Assembly (NCBI RefSeq): GCF_947648125.1
Contig: NZ_CANSMR010000024.1
Location: 45,135-109,134 of the forward strand
From: an uncultured Bradyrhizobium sp.
GTDB lineage: Bacteria; Pseudomonadota; Alphaproteobacteria; Rhizobiales; Xanthobacteraceae
Length of the DNA: 64,000 nucleotides
Direction of reading: 5' to 3'
This document shows positions 35,521 to 40,007 of this stretch, piece after piece (within the stretch, counting starts at the first letter, position 1; each line of letters starts with the position of its first letter). A model generated the notes under the pieces. The model was not told where the DNA came from and made no database searches. It worked only from the letters and a program-made list of their open reading frames with translations. The position numbers were made by a program, and so were the translations under genes.

Positions 35521-35555
35521 GTGATGTGGCAACCAACGCAAGTGGAGAAACCGAT

Positions 35556-36158
35556 ATGACGCCTGTTCGCGTGCCCACCCGCCGCGCCGTCGTCGCCGGC
35601 ATGATCGGCGCCGGCGTCGCGCTCGCGCCGCCGGCAGCACGGGCGCGCGCTGTGTCGGGACCGCCGCCATTCGGCACCATCCGGCATCAGTTCACGCTAG
35701 TTCAAGGCGCCCGCCCGGTGCCACGGGTTGCGATCCCCGCGCTCGCCGGTGGCGCGCTCGACCTCACCGCGTTCAAGGGCAAGCTTGTGCTGGTGAACTT
35801 CTGGGCCACCTGGTGCGCAGCATGCCGCACAGAGCTGCCGATGCTTGATCGCCTCGCCGCCAGCGGCCGCAGCGACCTCGCGGTCGTCGCCATCAGCACC
35901 GATCGCAACCGCGCGCAGGTCGCGCCCTACGTCAAGCAGCTCAAGCTTCGCCACCTTGCGATCGGCTTCGATCCGGGCGGTCTGGTCTCCCGCGTCGACG
36001 CCGCCGAGCTCGACACGCCGTTCGCGCTCTACGGCATGCCGATCTCATTCCTGATCGGCATCACCGGACAGGTCGAGGGCTATATGACGGGCGAGGCGGA
36101 CTGGCTGTCCGCGGAGGCGGGCGGGTTGTTTGATTATTATGCGGGGGGTGGGCGGTGA
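35556..36158 (+). CDS. TlpA-type thiol-disulfide oxidoreductase
   Basis: The 200-residue protein carries a twin-arginine-like leader (PTRRAVVAGMIGAGVALAPP) and a thioredoxin fold with the active site NFWATWCAACRTEL, Cys87 and Cys90. The cis-Pro loop is in GMPISFLIGITGQVEG. TlpA proteins reduce periplasmic disulfides, classically for cytochrome oxidase assembly in Bradyrhizobium; this one is in the DoxX-DsrE operon, so it may serve that system instead. The ATG at 35556 follows GGAGA. Confidence 0.88.
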   Translation: MTPVRVPTRRAVVAGMIGAGVALAPPAARARAVSGPPPFGTIRHQFTLVQGARPVPRVAIPALAGGALDLTAFKGKLVLVNFWATWCAACRTELPMLDRLAASGRSDLAVVAISTDRNRAQVAPYVKQLKLRHLAIGFDPGGLVSRVDAAELDTPFALYGMPISFLIGITGQVEGYMTGEADWLSAEAGGLFDYYAGGGR

Positions 36159-36397
36159 GCCGGGGCCGCTTACCCACGGAGGCTGAGGAAGCATGGCGGG
36201 GCTTCAGCAATAACTCGCCGCCCTCAGGCCTGTGCCGTTCCGCGGCGAACGATGCGGCGATCCGAGTCGTCGCCGTCGAACGGGAGGTTGTGTGAGCCGC
36301 TGGGATATTCCGTTGCGTGTCACTGAGCCCTAGAGATAATCTGTAGGCGGAGTTGCAACGAGCAAATGTGGGCCAGCTCCTCGATTTGAGGGTTGTC

Positions 36398-38974
36398 GTG
36401 GCGGATATTTTCATCAGTTATACGTCGCAGGATCGCGATTGGGCATTCTGGATCGGGCAGGAACTGGAAAAGCTCGGTCACACACCAAGGATACACGAGT
36501 GGGAGATCTCAGGCGGCGGCGATATCGCGGCTTGGATGGATGAGCGGTGTGACAAGGCCGATCATGCCCTTTTGGTAATCAGCGAGACCTATCTCGGCAA
36601 ACCCTATTCGAGCTGGGAGCGCCGGTCGGCACAATGGGCGGCGCAGACGGATCGTCCCAACTTCGCGCTGCCGGTGCGCATCGAGCTCTGCAAACTTCCT
36701 AACCTTCTTGCGTCCGTCAAACGGTCCGATCTCTTCGGCGTGGATGAAAGCGAGGCGAGGGAGCGGTTAATCGATCTCTTGCGGCCGGCTGACAAGCCCG
36801 CAGTACCAACGAAGTTTCCGGGTGCGGCAAAACCTCAGATGGATTTGAAGCCGGAAGTGTCGGCACCTTTTCCGGGGCAGAAGGCCGAGCGGCGCAGCGT
36901 GATCACCAATATTCCAATCAACGTGCCACGGCATTTCATCGGTCGTCACGACGACTTCCGTGCAATCGAGATCGCGCTCAATGGTGACGATGGTCGTGCG
37001 GCCGTGACGGCACTGCACGGTCTGCGTGGTGTCGGTAAGACGACGCTCGCAGCGGCATATGCCGAACGCCATCGCGATGGCTACCGCGCGACTTGGTGGA
37101 TCAGGGCCGCGACTCCAGCAACAATGCGTGCAGATATCGCAGGACTCGGGGTACGCCTTGGCTGGATCGCAGCCGATACTCAAGAGGAGCAGGCCGTCAA
37201 CACGGTGCTGGATCAACTTCGCAGTGAACGCGAATGCATGCTGCTCATCTATGACAATGCAGTCGGCCCAAGAGAGCTCACGAAATACCTGCCCCGCGGG
37301 GGTTCGGCCCACATCATCATTACTTCAAATGCACCGAATTGGGGAGCGGTTGCCGCCCCAATGGAAGTCGATATCTGGTCGGACGAGGTCGGAGCTGATT
37401 TTCTGATGGTGCGGACCCAAAGGATGACAGAACGCGATGCGGCTTTGGCTCTCTCTCGATCGCTTGGCGGTCTGCCGCTCGCGCACGAGCAGGCCGCCGC
37501 CTACTGCGAACGTACTGGGTCATCATTTGCGGGGTACAACTCACAATTTGAATCAACGCCCGTAGCACTTCTCGGCGAGGTCGAAGACCTTGCACTCGAT
37601 TATGGGGTGACTGTCGCGAGGACATTTGCTCTCGCTATCGCGGGAGCCATCGAACTTCACCCCCACGCTTTCTCTTTGATGGTTCTTGTGGCACTGCTCT
37701 CGCCTCGGCCGATACCGATGTATTTCTTCTCTGAAGGACATGAGAAACTAGGGGAAGACTTCGCATCTGTCGTCAAGAAGGGTGACCTCGATAGGGTCAT
37801 AGCGGCTCTGCGCGGCTTTGCATTGCTCGATCGGGAATTGATCTTTGACGAACGTGATCCGTCAGTCGTGACGGACTGCATTTCGGTGCACCGGTTGGTG
37901 GGTCAAATAACCCTTGCACGCTTCAGCCCCGAATTCCGACAAAGGATCGGATGGTTTTTGATCGAAGCAATAGCGGAGGTTTATCCGCCCGGCTCCCTCT
38001 TTGCGAAGCCGGAATTGTGGCCGCGAGCGCGGCGGCTGGATGCCATCGCGTCGGCACTAGTTGGCATCGAAACTAGCGCGCCGGTCGACGTTGCAGAACA
38101 GTACTGGCGCAGGATCGTTACAGCTTCAAGGATAACGACCCTGAATCAGCTCGCTTTGTATCGTCAGACAGTGTTGGGAGATTTCGCGGAAGCAAGACGC
38201 TATTTTGAGCTCGCATTAGCAATCAATGAGCGTGATCTCGATAGCGAAAGTCCGTTTGAGGGGATTGTGCTTAACAATCTCGGCGGTCTGCATCTGCAGC
38301 AAGGTAGTTTCGGAGAGGCTCGCTCATGTTACGAGCGGGCTGCGCTGTTCTATGAGAAGAAGCCGGAGGAGGGCCCCACTCGCCTTGCCATAACGTTAAG
38401 CAATTTGAGTAGCGCGCTGACGTCTCAAGGTGAGCACGTAGCAGCAAAGAGTTTGCAGGAGCGTTCCCTCGCAATTCTCGGGGAGGATGCCAATGATCCG
38501 AACACAACGTTTGCGCTTAGCCAGCTTGGTTATTCGCAATGGATGCAAGGCAACCTTACAATAGCGCTGACTTATTTTGAACGCGCGGTGGCTATCTGCG
38601 AGAAAGGATTTGGTCCTGACCACCTTTATCTGGCGGCAAACTTAGCCAACTTGGGTGGTGTGGTCATGGATCAAGGGGATCTTGTGCGAGCACGCAGCCT
38701 TCTTGAGCGCGCCCTGGCTCTGCGCCAAGCAACGCTCGGCTCGGACCATATCGACACTGCAATGAGCCTCAATGATTTCGGCTGTCTTCTGCGGAGGGAG
38801 GGCGACCACGCTGCTGCCCTGCCATATCATGAACAGGCGCTCGCGATCTTCGTGGAAAAGTTAGGGCCAACCCATCCCAACTCAAAGAAGGCGGCCGAAA
38901 ATGTCGCGGTCGTATTGGAGGCAATTGGCCGGCCTGCGGAAGCTCGCAGTCTGCGGGACAAGTTCGGTCTGTAA
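36398..38974 (+). CDS. TIR / NB-ARC (STAND NTPase) / TPR protein, probable immune-type sensor
   Basis: This 858-residue protein has three parts. Residues 1-130 are a TIR domain (DIFISYTSQDRDWAFWIGQE, then LLVISETYLGKPYSSWERR). Residues about 175-420 are an NB-ARC NTPase with Walker A GLRGVGKTTLA (near 210), Walker B MLLIYDN (near 281), IIITSN and the GLPLA box (near 356). Residues about 598-858 are kinesin-light-chain-like TPRs. Prokaryotic TIR-STAND proteins are often antiphage sensors. The glutamate usually found four residues after the SxW tryptophan of TIR NADases is Ser here, with Glu directly after Trp, so NADase activity is uncertain. GTG at 36398 has GAGGG upstream; TTG at 36353 is possible. 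G+C is low: 29/60 at 37501-37560. Confidence 0.88.
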   Translation: MADIFISYTSQDRDWAFWIGQELEKLGHTPRIHEWEISGGGDIAAWMDERCDKADHALLVISETYLGKPYSSWERRSAQWAAQTDRPNFALPVRIELCKLPNLLASVKRSDLFGVDESEARERLIDLLRPADKPAVPTKFPGAAKPQMDLKPEVSAPFPGQKAERRSVITNIPINVPRHFIGRHDDFRAIEIALNGDDGRAAVTALHGLRGVGKTTLAAAYAERHRDGYRATWWIRAATPATMRADIAGLGVRLGWIAADTQEEQAVNTVLDQLRSERECMLLIYDNAVGPRELTKYLPRGGSAHIIITSNAPNWGAVAAPMEVDIWSDEVGADFLMVRTQRMTERDAALALSRSLGGLPLAHEQAAAYCERTGSSFAGYNSQFESTPVALLGEVEDLALDYGVTVARTFALAIAGAIELHPHAFSLMVLVALLSPRPIPMYFFSEGHEKLGEDFASVVKKGDLDRVIAALRGFALLDRELIFDERDPSVVTDCISVHRLVGQITLARFSPEFRQRIGWFLIEAIAEVYPPGSLFAKPELWPRARRLDAIASALVGIETSAPVDVAEQYWRRIVTASRITTLNQLALYRQTVLGDFAEARRYFELALAINERDLDSESPFEGIVLNNLGGLHLQQGSFGEARSCYERAALFYEKKPEEGPTRLAITLSNLSSALTSQGEHVAAKSLQERSLAILGEDANDPNTTFALSQLGYSQWMQGNLTIALTYFERAVAICEKGFGPDHLYLAANLANLGGVVMDQGDLVRARSLLERALALRQATLGSDHIDTAMSLNDFGCLLRREGDHAAALPYHEQALAIFVEKLGPTHPNSKKAAENVAVVLEAIGRPAEARSLRDKFGL

Positions 38975-38992
38975 GAGGTTGCCTGCATCGCC

Positions 38993-39520
38993 TCACGGCA
39001 GCTTGTCATACCCCTCCGCCAGGCCGTTCAGGCTGAGCGGGAACCCGATACCTTCTTCCGGGGTCTCGAAAATAATGAACGTCGCGGTCTTGGCGTTCTT
39101 GATCTGGCCGAGCAGCTTGTCGTCCATCACGACCTCGGCGACGCAGCCATTGGGCAGGCATCTGACAAAGCCGGCGCGGCCGACGTCCTGGTTGTCGAGC
39201 TTCAGGCCGAGGCCGGAGGGCAGCAGCACGCCGAGCGGGGCGACCACGCGCATCAGGCGGCTCTTCTGATCGGCGGTCTTCAGCACGATCACGGTCAGGC
39301 CGGCATTTGAGCGGTCTTCGGCTACCACGCTCTGGATCAGCGCGCATTGCTCGGCCTGGGCGCCAGGTGGGGTGTCGCAGCGGATCTGCCAGTCGCCATG
39401 GACCGAGCGCACCGCGCCCTGCGCGTTCGACGGCTGGGCCAGGCCGAGAGAAAAGGCCAGAATCAGCAGGCCGCCGAGCCAGCCGGCCTTTCGTCCTGCC
39501 TGAATTTTCGAAGCGCCCAT
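38993..39520 (-). CDS. Invasion-associated locus B (IalB) family protein
   Basis: The 175-residue protein has a signal peptide (AGWLGGLLILAFSLGLAQPS), then VHGDWQIRCDTPPGAQAEQC and RCLPNGCVAEVVMDDKLLGQ, matching IalB family spacing with its conserved Cys pairs. IalB-type proteins are periplasmic or envelope proteins of alphaproteobacteria; the role outside Bartonella is unclear. The ATG at 39520 is chosen; an upstream extension lacks a leader. It converges on the TIR gene, with 18 bases between them. Confidence 0.87.
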   Translation of the reverse strand: MGASKIQAGRKAGWLGGLLILAFSLGLAQPSNAQGAVRSVHGDWQIRCDTPPGAQAEQCALIQSVVAEDRSNAGLTVIVLKTADQKSRLMRVVAPLGVLLPSGLGLKLDNQDVGRAGFVRCLPNGCVAEVVMDDKLLGQIKNAKTATFIIFETPEEGIGFPLSLNGLAEGYDKLP

Positions 39521-40007
39521 CCGGGGTCGATCCTTTGATTGTTCGGTCGGTCCGGCCGTCGAGGCCGCCGGGTAGCACGCATCAGTCGACTGATACCGCA
39601 ATAGGGCGCCTTGAAGGCGATCTTGAAGCCATTCCCGCGCCGGATTGGGGCAGCCCGCAGCGAATCAGGTTCCTGCGGGCTATCCCGTCTGTGCGTACAT
39701 CCGGTAATCCCCCTGTCAACAGTGCGCGGCGATGTTCCGACGACTTTCGCTTGATTTTGCGGGAAAAATCGCAAGCGGCAGCTTCATCGCAGGCGCATGG
39801 CTTTCGGCCGTACTACTGCATTGCGAGCGCCTGCGAATTATGGTTTGAGAGGCTGGATTTCGACGCGTTCTAGCGATCTGGCTCCCGTACCCACCTTGAC
39901 TCAGAGACGGGTATGTCCGGAAGGCCATTTGTCAGGGCGGATCGTGCTGTATCTCCGGTCACATGCCGGGGGTGCGTTGGGGAATAATGCAAGGGAGCGC
40001 GAACGGC
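39521..40007. other. 487-base intergenic region between ialB and ctaC
   Basis: No credible gene is seen. It must hold the divergent promoters of ialB and the cytochrome oxidase operon. The one clear element is ATCAGTCGACTGAT at 39581-39594, a perfect 14-base palindrome 61 bases upstream of the ialB start, possibly an operator. A TTGACT at about 39896 could be a -35 for ctaC, but no good -10 follows at the right distance. Confidence 0.5.

Follow-up and report, generated by a model that had tools for sequence, protein, structure and literature searches.

The 64-kb stretch of Bradyrhizobium DNA analysed here (the window) raises the question of what a large gene of low G+C content is doing between a TlpA-like gene (35526-36158, forward strand) and ialB (38993-39601, reverse strand), and how it came to be there. 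The gene (36398-38974, forward strand) is convergent with ialB and runs from a GTG at 36398 to a TAA at 38974, encoding a protein of 858 amino acids. The longest frame at this position opens at a TTG at 36353, and a promoter scan gave nothing exceeding its shuffles. The initial annotation had presented it as an orphan TIR/NB-ARC/TPR gene transferred from elsewhere and as a candidate single-gene immune system.

The predicted protein has the TIR, NB-ARC and TPR parts in the order first proposed, all of them on the forward strand. At its N-terminus is a TIR_2 domain (36407-36772; residues 4-125; Pfam E-value 2.8e-23), a putative NAD-consuming head. The codon of Glu74 (36617-36619) aligns with the Glu of the AbTIR 'WTNYE' motif, which we take to be the catalytic Glu of AbTIR, a placement that comes from weak pairwise matches to solved bacterial TIR structures with E-values of 0.04-0.14 (0.14 for AbTIR itself). 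The four nearest TIR heads also have Glu at this position, in the motifs PYSSWE, PYSSLE and PYPLFE. A degenerate TIR, in which 'SAQW' seems to give Gln as the catalytic residue, was considered and rejected, as the alignments place Glu74 there. A linker with a repeated FPG motif (36773-36892; noted by eye), a motif that also follows the TIR of the TIR-hydrolase fusions described below, leads to an NB-ARC/STAND chassis (36893-37900) that extends from the head-chassis joint at about residue 166 to a VHRLV motif. Within or near this chassis are the P-loop GLRGVGKTT (37019-37045; residues 208-216, with Lys214), the Walker B motif LLIYDNA (37241-37261; residues 282-288), GLPLA at residue 358 and the MHD-like VHRLV at residue 497. 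The Pfam NB-ARC model by itself is weak on this protein (E-value 0.024, 14.3 bits against a cut-off of 23.5), and NCBIfam NF040586 spans residues 178-852 with 323.4 bits against a cut-off of 300. The C-terminal part (38174-38953; about residues 593-852) is a TPR array of the kinesin-light-chain type, the presumed sensor, in which Pfam TPR_12 matches in five stretches (1.6e-52, 176 bits) together with kinesin light chain models. These domains and motifs support the NLR-like STAND logic of the initial annotation, and by comparison the protein appears to be of the TIR-NB-ARC-TPR (TNP) type, having a TIR with the Glu, the NB-ARC motifs and C-terminal TPRs. No TIR-NLR or Avs model of PADLOC matches it at E ≤ 1, and all eight matches at that threshold are weak, including bSEFIR (26 bits), TPR, an Argonaute-associated TIR and ThsB; the ThsB score is only 10.6 bits, and the ThsA partner that Thoeris would have beside ThsB is absent from six scanned neighbours. 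Pfam finds no DUF4062 in the window protein, which thus lacks the head that characterizes Swarozyc.

In composition the gene differs from its surroundings. It has a G+C content of 56.7% and a GC3 of 59.8%, against a mean G+C of 65.7% (sd 2.3, minimum 61.3%) across 36 further long frames in the window, picked mechanically without a one-by-one check, and the 1-kb bins 37001-38000 and 38001-39000 are the two lowest in G+C of the window. The short hand counts on which this contrast was first based are exact (48.3% at 37501-37560, 50.0% at 38101-38160 and 61.7% at 35761-35820). The contrast is real, but those counts overstated it on the side of the gene, given its overall value, and understated it on the side of the TlpA-like gene, which in full has a G+C of 69.0%.

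Comparison with eight close relatives that have TlpA (L044-L050 and L065) reveals an empty site in each. Homology on the left stops at window positions 36145-36160, approximately at the TlpA stop codon, and on the right it starts at 38989-38997, approximately at the ialB stop codon; the TlpA and ialB matches are spaced by 13-173 bp in the empty sites, where the window holds about 2.83 kb. Relative to these sites the insertion extends from approximately 36160 to 38994, a stretch made up of the gene and, ahead of it, about 240 bp. Mobile-element marks had been reported as absent, and indeed there is no repeat pair spanning both ends of the insert, no tRNA in the 64-kb window (ARAGORN), and no further genomic copy of the 236 bp that precede the gene. 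Six neighbours were scanned with Pfam (TldD, HxlR, DoxX, DsrE, TlpA-like and IalB); none of them is defence-like, and they give no support for a defence island. Because of the low G+C, the empty sites in near relatives and the patchy distribution described below, the gene was probably acquired horizontally, in keeping with the transfer suggested at the outset.

The distribution of related genes is patchy. The receptor gene is single-copy in its own genome, which has five TIR_2 matches in total, four of them elsewhere. Eight of 149 genomes, its own included, match at 1e-30, and outside its own genome most of these matches are partial; the strongest non-self match among the 149 is to G046 (720 bits, residues 167-857), followed by G126 (202 bits). 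Just one of 385 genomes of the class, beyond its own, matches at 1e-50. These searches scored the best few candidates per genome (six for the 149 genomes and two for the 385), as did further protein searches (four in one, and three in the search with the G046 protein), such that absences are uncertain. A scan of genome contigs gave one weak locus only. Among plasmid records 88 match at 1e-5, of which 13 cover at least 80% of the query. In Methylobacterium indicum plasmid pVL1_5 (L041:6481-12808), two divergent receptor genes flank a DUF4231/SLATT_1 gene, and the plasmid also has genes annotated as 'abortive infection family protein' and BrnT/BrnA. Prosthecochloris aestuarii plasmid pPAES01, typed as conjugative, carries a TIR-NB-ARC-TPR gene in a stretch (L042:1325-10340) that also contains a recombinase and a diversity-generating retroelement (Avd, reverse transcriptase). 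Carriage by phages was considered and set aside: there is no match at 1e-5 in the phage collection, and none in viral contigs to six short peptide patterns, which are sensitive to close relatives only. The word orphan used in the initial annotation thus applies insofar as the gene is the sole copy in its genome, but not beyond it, since this junction bears a TIR or DUF4062 gene in four other genomes of the genus, and a full-length relative is present on the Methylobacterium plasmid.

We think it probable that the window gene was acquired horizontally and constitutes by itself a STAND immune system, encoding a receptor of the TIR-NB-ARC-TPR type. In the resting state the TPR array would keep the NB-ARC switch closed. 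Binding of a phage or other intruder component to the TPRs would let the switch load nucleotide and form oligomers, bringing together TIR heads that would then use up NAD+, and the infected cell would stop or die. It is from the anatomy of the protein that we infer ligand sensing, oligomerisation, NAD+ consumption and phage defence. A somewhat different output is conceivable, though we regard it as unlikely, in which the TIR does not kill through NAD+ depletion but produces a diffusible NAD-derived signal for a separate effector encoded elsewhere, such as a SLATT/DUF4231 membrane protein. The DUF4231/SLATT_1 gene between the two Methylobacterium receptor genes is consistent with such a signal, as is a passage of PMC7159879 recalling its authors' earlier prediction that SLATT proteins are nucleotide-signal-responsive pore formers; however, there is no SLATT gene among the six scanned neighbours in the window, and the insert contains the receptor gene alone.

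The site occupied by this candidate immune receptor is more telling when viewed across the genus. An ialB match is present in 255 of 265 genus genomes, and the junction was read in 156: the window genome, 100 that were drawn, G922 and G948, which entered the sample through homology to the G046 protein, and 53 more, 48 of these being added where the listed matches were incomplete and five picked by gap size. (A total of 158 sequences have both ialB and TldD, two being second copies from G948 and G013.) A comparison of the locus across strains had been proposed in the initial annotation, together with the caution that universal presence, synteny and normal codon use would speak against an acquired immune gene; such genes occupy the locus in five of the 156 genomes, and the gene is neither universal and syntenic nor of normal composition. 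A tblastn search of the interval from ialB to TldD with 14 head and chassis queries found nothing in 151 of the 156, the five occupants being the only matches. When the G046 protein is used as a query against the 265 genomes at any location, the best five matches are G046, the window, G922, G013 and G948, and all five sit at the ialB junction, in the same orientation.

The five occupants are not copies of one another. Where the window has TIR-NB-ARC-TPR, G046 has DUF4062-NB-ARC-TPR (DUF4062 65 bits), which is 50% identical to the window protein over residues 169-858. The G013 occupant has a DUF4062 head 63% identical to that of G046, joined to another, STAND-like chassis that has no Pfam name and resembles NB-ARC proteins weakly (24% over 183 residues for L154, and 29% over 690 residues for the G948 protein at L195). 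In G922 there is a 1079-residue frame with TIR-NB-ARC and a C-terminus without Pfam match, and in G948 (L191:5176-7083) a protein of 635 residues with DUF4062 and a C-terminal TIR, between which is a likely membrane helix, identified by eye. This G948 protein unites two NADase-type domains. The G922 occupant is ordinary in G+C, at 66.0%, and the other three (G046, G013 and G948) are at 54.5-56.9%. A 2026 preprint (PMC13174449) shows bacterial DUF4062 proteins to be TIR-like NADases in phage defence, and reports human DUF4062 domains beside NACHT in TEP1, NPHP3, NWD1 and NWD2; as TEP1 alone of these four human proteins hydrolysed NAD+, NADase activity cannot be assumed for every DUF4062 domain.

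Is there an association of such genes with the junction? DUF4062 scores over its cut-off in nine of 80 drawn genus genomes, once in each, and two of the nine (G046 and G013) are at the ialB junction. The chance of at least two doing so at random is about 6e-7, calculated by hand, assuming about 8,000 genes per genome, and weakened if the G046 and G013 genes share descent. For TIR there is no enrichment: TIR_2 is found in 40 of the 80 genomes, the only one seen at the junction being that of the window, the starting gene, and the TIR of G922 came into view through homology. The link of TIR and DUF4062 receptor genes to the junction is not exclusive. In G948 another protein, combining DUF4062 with NB-ARC, is encoded at a great distance from ialB (L195:3050-6094); G936 (TIR-NB-ARC, with L192 having TIR and NB-ARC) and G978 (NB-ARC) have relatives that are 38-39% identical over about 300 residues and are not on the ialB contigs, and G905 and G082 have weaker NB-ARC relatives likewise away from them. 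The junction is also a variable site in general, because the other inserts there are ordinary genes: an acyl-CoA dehydrogenase, a carboxylesterase, an HD domain protein and one of the AraC type among the four proteins scanned. The gap in G890, examined as a sixth occupied site, contains an acyl-CoA dehydrogenase and was discarded. In G020, beyond TldD (L080, L152), there is a protein of 829 residues with AAA/STAND and leucine-rich repeats, judged by eye, and a TIR_2 match lies about 3.4 kb past TldD, which may mean that the region of variation reaches beyond this gene.

That five genomes share the junction and orientation, and that the window and G046 share a chassis with 50% identity over residues 169-858, could be read to mean that the receptor gene was already at the ialB junction in an ancestor, diverged there and was lost in most species, with no repeated acquisition. 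We consider this improbable. By ialB, which is 95% identical, G948 is near to the window genome, yet the two have dissimilar proteins in the same TlpA-ialB gap; chassis divergence between the window and G046 is far greater than that of their ialB genes, which are 88% identical; and the tblastn search leaves 151 of the 156 junctions without a match.

Different heads are found on homologous chassis. A tree of ten NB-ARC regions pairs the window with G046 (support 94/93, just below the program's mark for firm support), and these regions are 54% identical, with heads that are TIR in the one and DUF4062 in the other. The Methylobacterium plasmid genes, MiA and MiB, have NB-ARC regions that are 98% identical and paired at 100/99, with a TIR head versus a DUF4062-like head. 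By blastn their DNA is 88% identical from nucleotides 439 and 571 onward, which puts the joint before the NB-ARC, and there is no match between the two upstream of these points. We term the second plasmid head DUF4062-like only, because it scores 21.1 bits against the DUF4062 cut-off of 24.7 and is 21-26% identical to other DUF4062 heads. On the NB-ARC tree the DUF4062 label has to change twice, and this number stands when only the firmly supported branches are counted. The twin plasmid genes look like a recent head swap.

Among the heads compared, those nearest to the window TIR by identity (61%) belong to TIR fusions of G046 and G086, whereas the plasmid TIR is 55% identical; a TIR tree does not resolve which head is nearest. 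In these fusions (L143:9001-12492 in G046 and L144:8820-12458 in G086, 61% alike) TIR is joined to a T6SS Tle1-like phospholipase catalytic domain. G046 also has 22 TIR_2 matches, the next highest number among 80 genomes being eight. Since the window protein pairs with G046 by its NB-ARC but is nearest to the hydrolase-fusion TIRs by head identity, heads and chassis appear to have differing histories. The fusion of the nearest heads to a phospholipase domain might suggest that the window protein is itself an antibacterial or host-directed TIR effector and not an intracellular immune receptor, but this seems very unlikely given an NB-ARC with intact P-loop, Walker B and GLPLA together with TPRs, which is the anatomy of a receptor.

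For the immune receptor, the N-terminal head looks like an exchangeable module, and the overall pattern suggests a chromosomal exchange site at which effector heads are swapped. We propose tentatively, at somewhat less than even chances, that the ialB 3' junction acts in the genus as an exchange dock for NADase-armed receptors, at which whole genes are replaced, perhaps through homologous recombination in the conserved flanks, and TIR or DUF4062 heads are exchanged when recombination occurs at one fixed joint shortly ahead of the P-loop. If so, one chassis alternates between a plant-TNP-like TIR-NB-ARC-TPR arrangement and one with DUF4062 beside an NTPase as in animal NPHP3, and the choice of effector evolves apart from the choice of sensor. 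The locus provides a natural experiment, with homologous chassis and two NADase-type heads in one genus at one locus, and from the site and the swaps it can be tested whether the head sets nothing but the output and the TPR chassis sets recognition. In the open-access literature, the scope of our search, with most subscription papers outside it, we did not find TIR/DUF4062 head alternation on one chassis at one chromosomal junction; a search for DUF4062 together with NB-ARC gave PMC13174449 alone, in which the NB-ARC passage listed concerns APAF-1.

The NCBI name of the best-matching family, 'FxSxx-COOH system TPR protein' (equivalog NF040586), can hide likely immune receptors. That the gene belongs to an FxSxx-COOH peptide-modification system, as its score of 323 bits over the cut-off of 300 and a section of PMC7159879 on TIR AP-ATPases in peptide-linked conflict systems would suggest (TIR AP-ATPases beside FxSxx-type peptide systems, and C-terminal-TPR AP-ATPases with related ones), is scarcely credible and largely refuted by the whole genome, in which the radical-SAM/SPASM partner FxsB (TIGR04269) reaches at best 22.8 bits against a cut-off of 370, as well as by the six scanned neighbours, which include no peptide-system gene, and by the breadth of NF040586, whose cut-off is passed by six of the nine further proteins scanned, their heads being TIR, DUF4062-like or of another kind.

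Several known systems bear comparison with the candidate receptor. Avs5/AVAST, as described in part of PMC12931631, is likewise a STAND defence protein with a NADase effector, and TPRs are present in two of the systems, but the effector is Sir2 and the NTPase subdomain is nSTAND3, and the window protein matches no Avs model. Swarozyc, in the corresponding part of PMC13174449, shares a TIR-like NADase effector, and DUF4062 is present in three of the four other junction occupants (G046, G013 and G948); the window protein has TIR and not DUF4062, however, and the Swarozyc system tested senses the phage portal by an auxiliary domain of its own. The pVL1_5 protein WP_207184165.1 is, like that of the window, a full-length TIR-NB-ARC-TPR protein, with 44% identity, but its gene is one of a divergent pair, in which the twin has a DUF4062-like head and a DUF4231/SLATT gene lies in the middle. 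The TIR-NB-ARC-TPR architecture is already known, TIR-NB-TPR proteins being reported in bacteria in PMC9806590. The window protein shares with this architecture, which is that of plant TNPs, the TIR, the C-terminal TPRs and an NB-ARC bearing P-loop, Walker B, GLPL and MHD-like motifs; according to that paper, the likeness of selected bacterial and fungal proteins to plant TNPs lies in the nucleotide-binding domain and not in the TIR or TPR. The window gene is an alphaproteobacterial addition to these TIR-NB-ARC-TPR receptors, whose outline is also found in plants.
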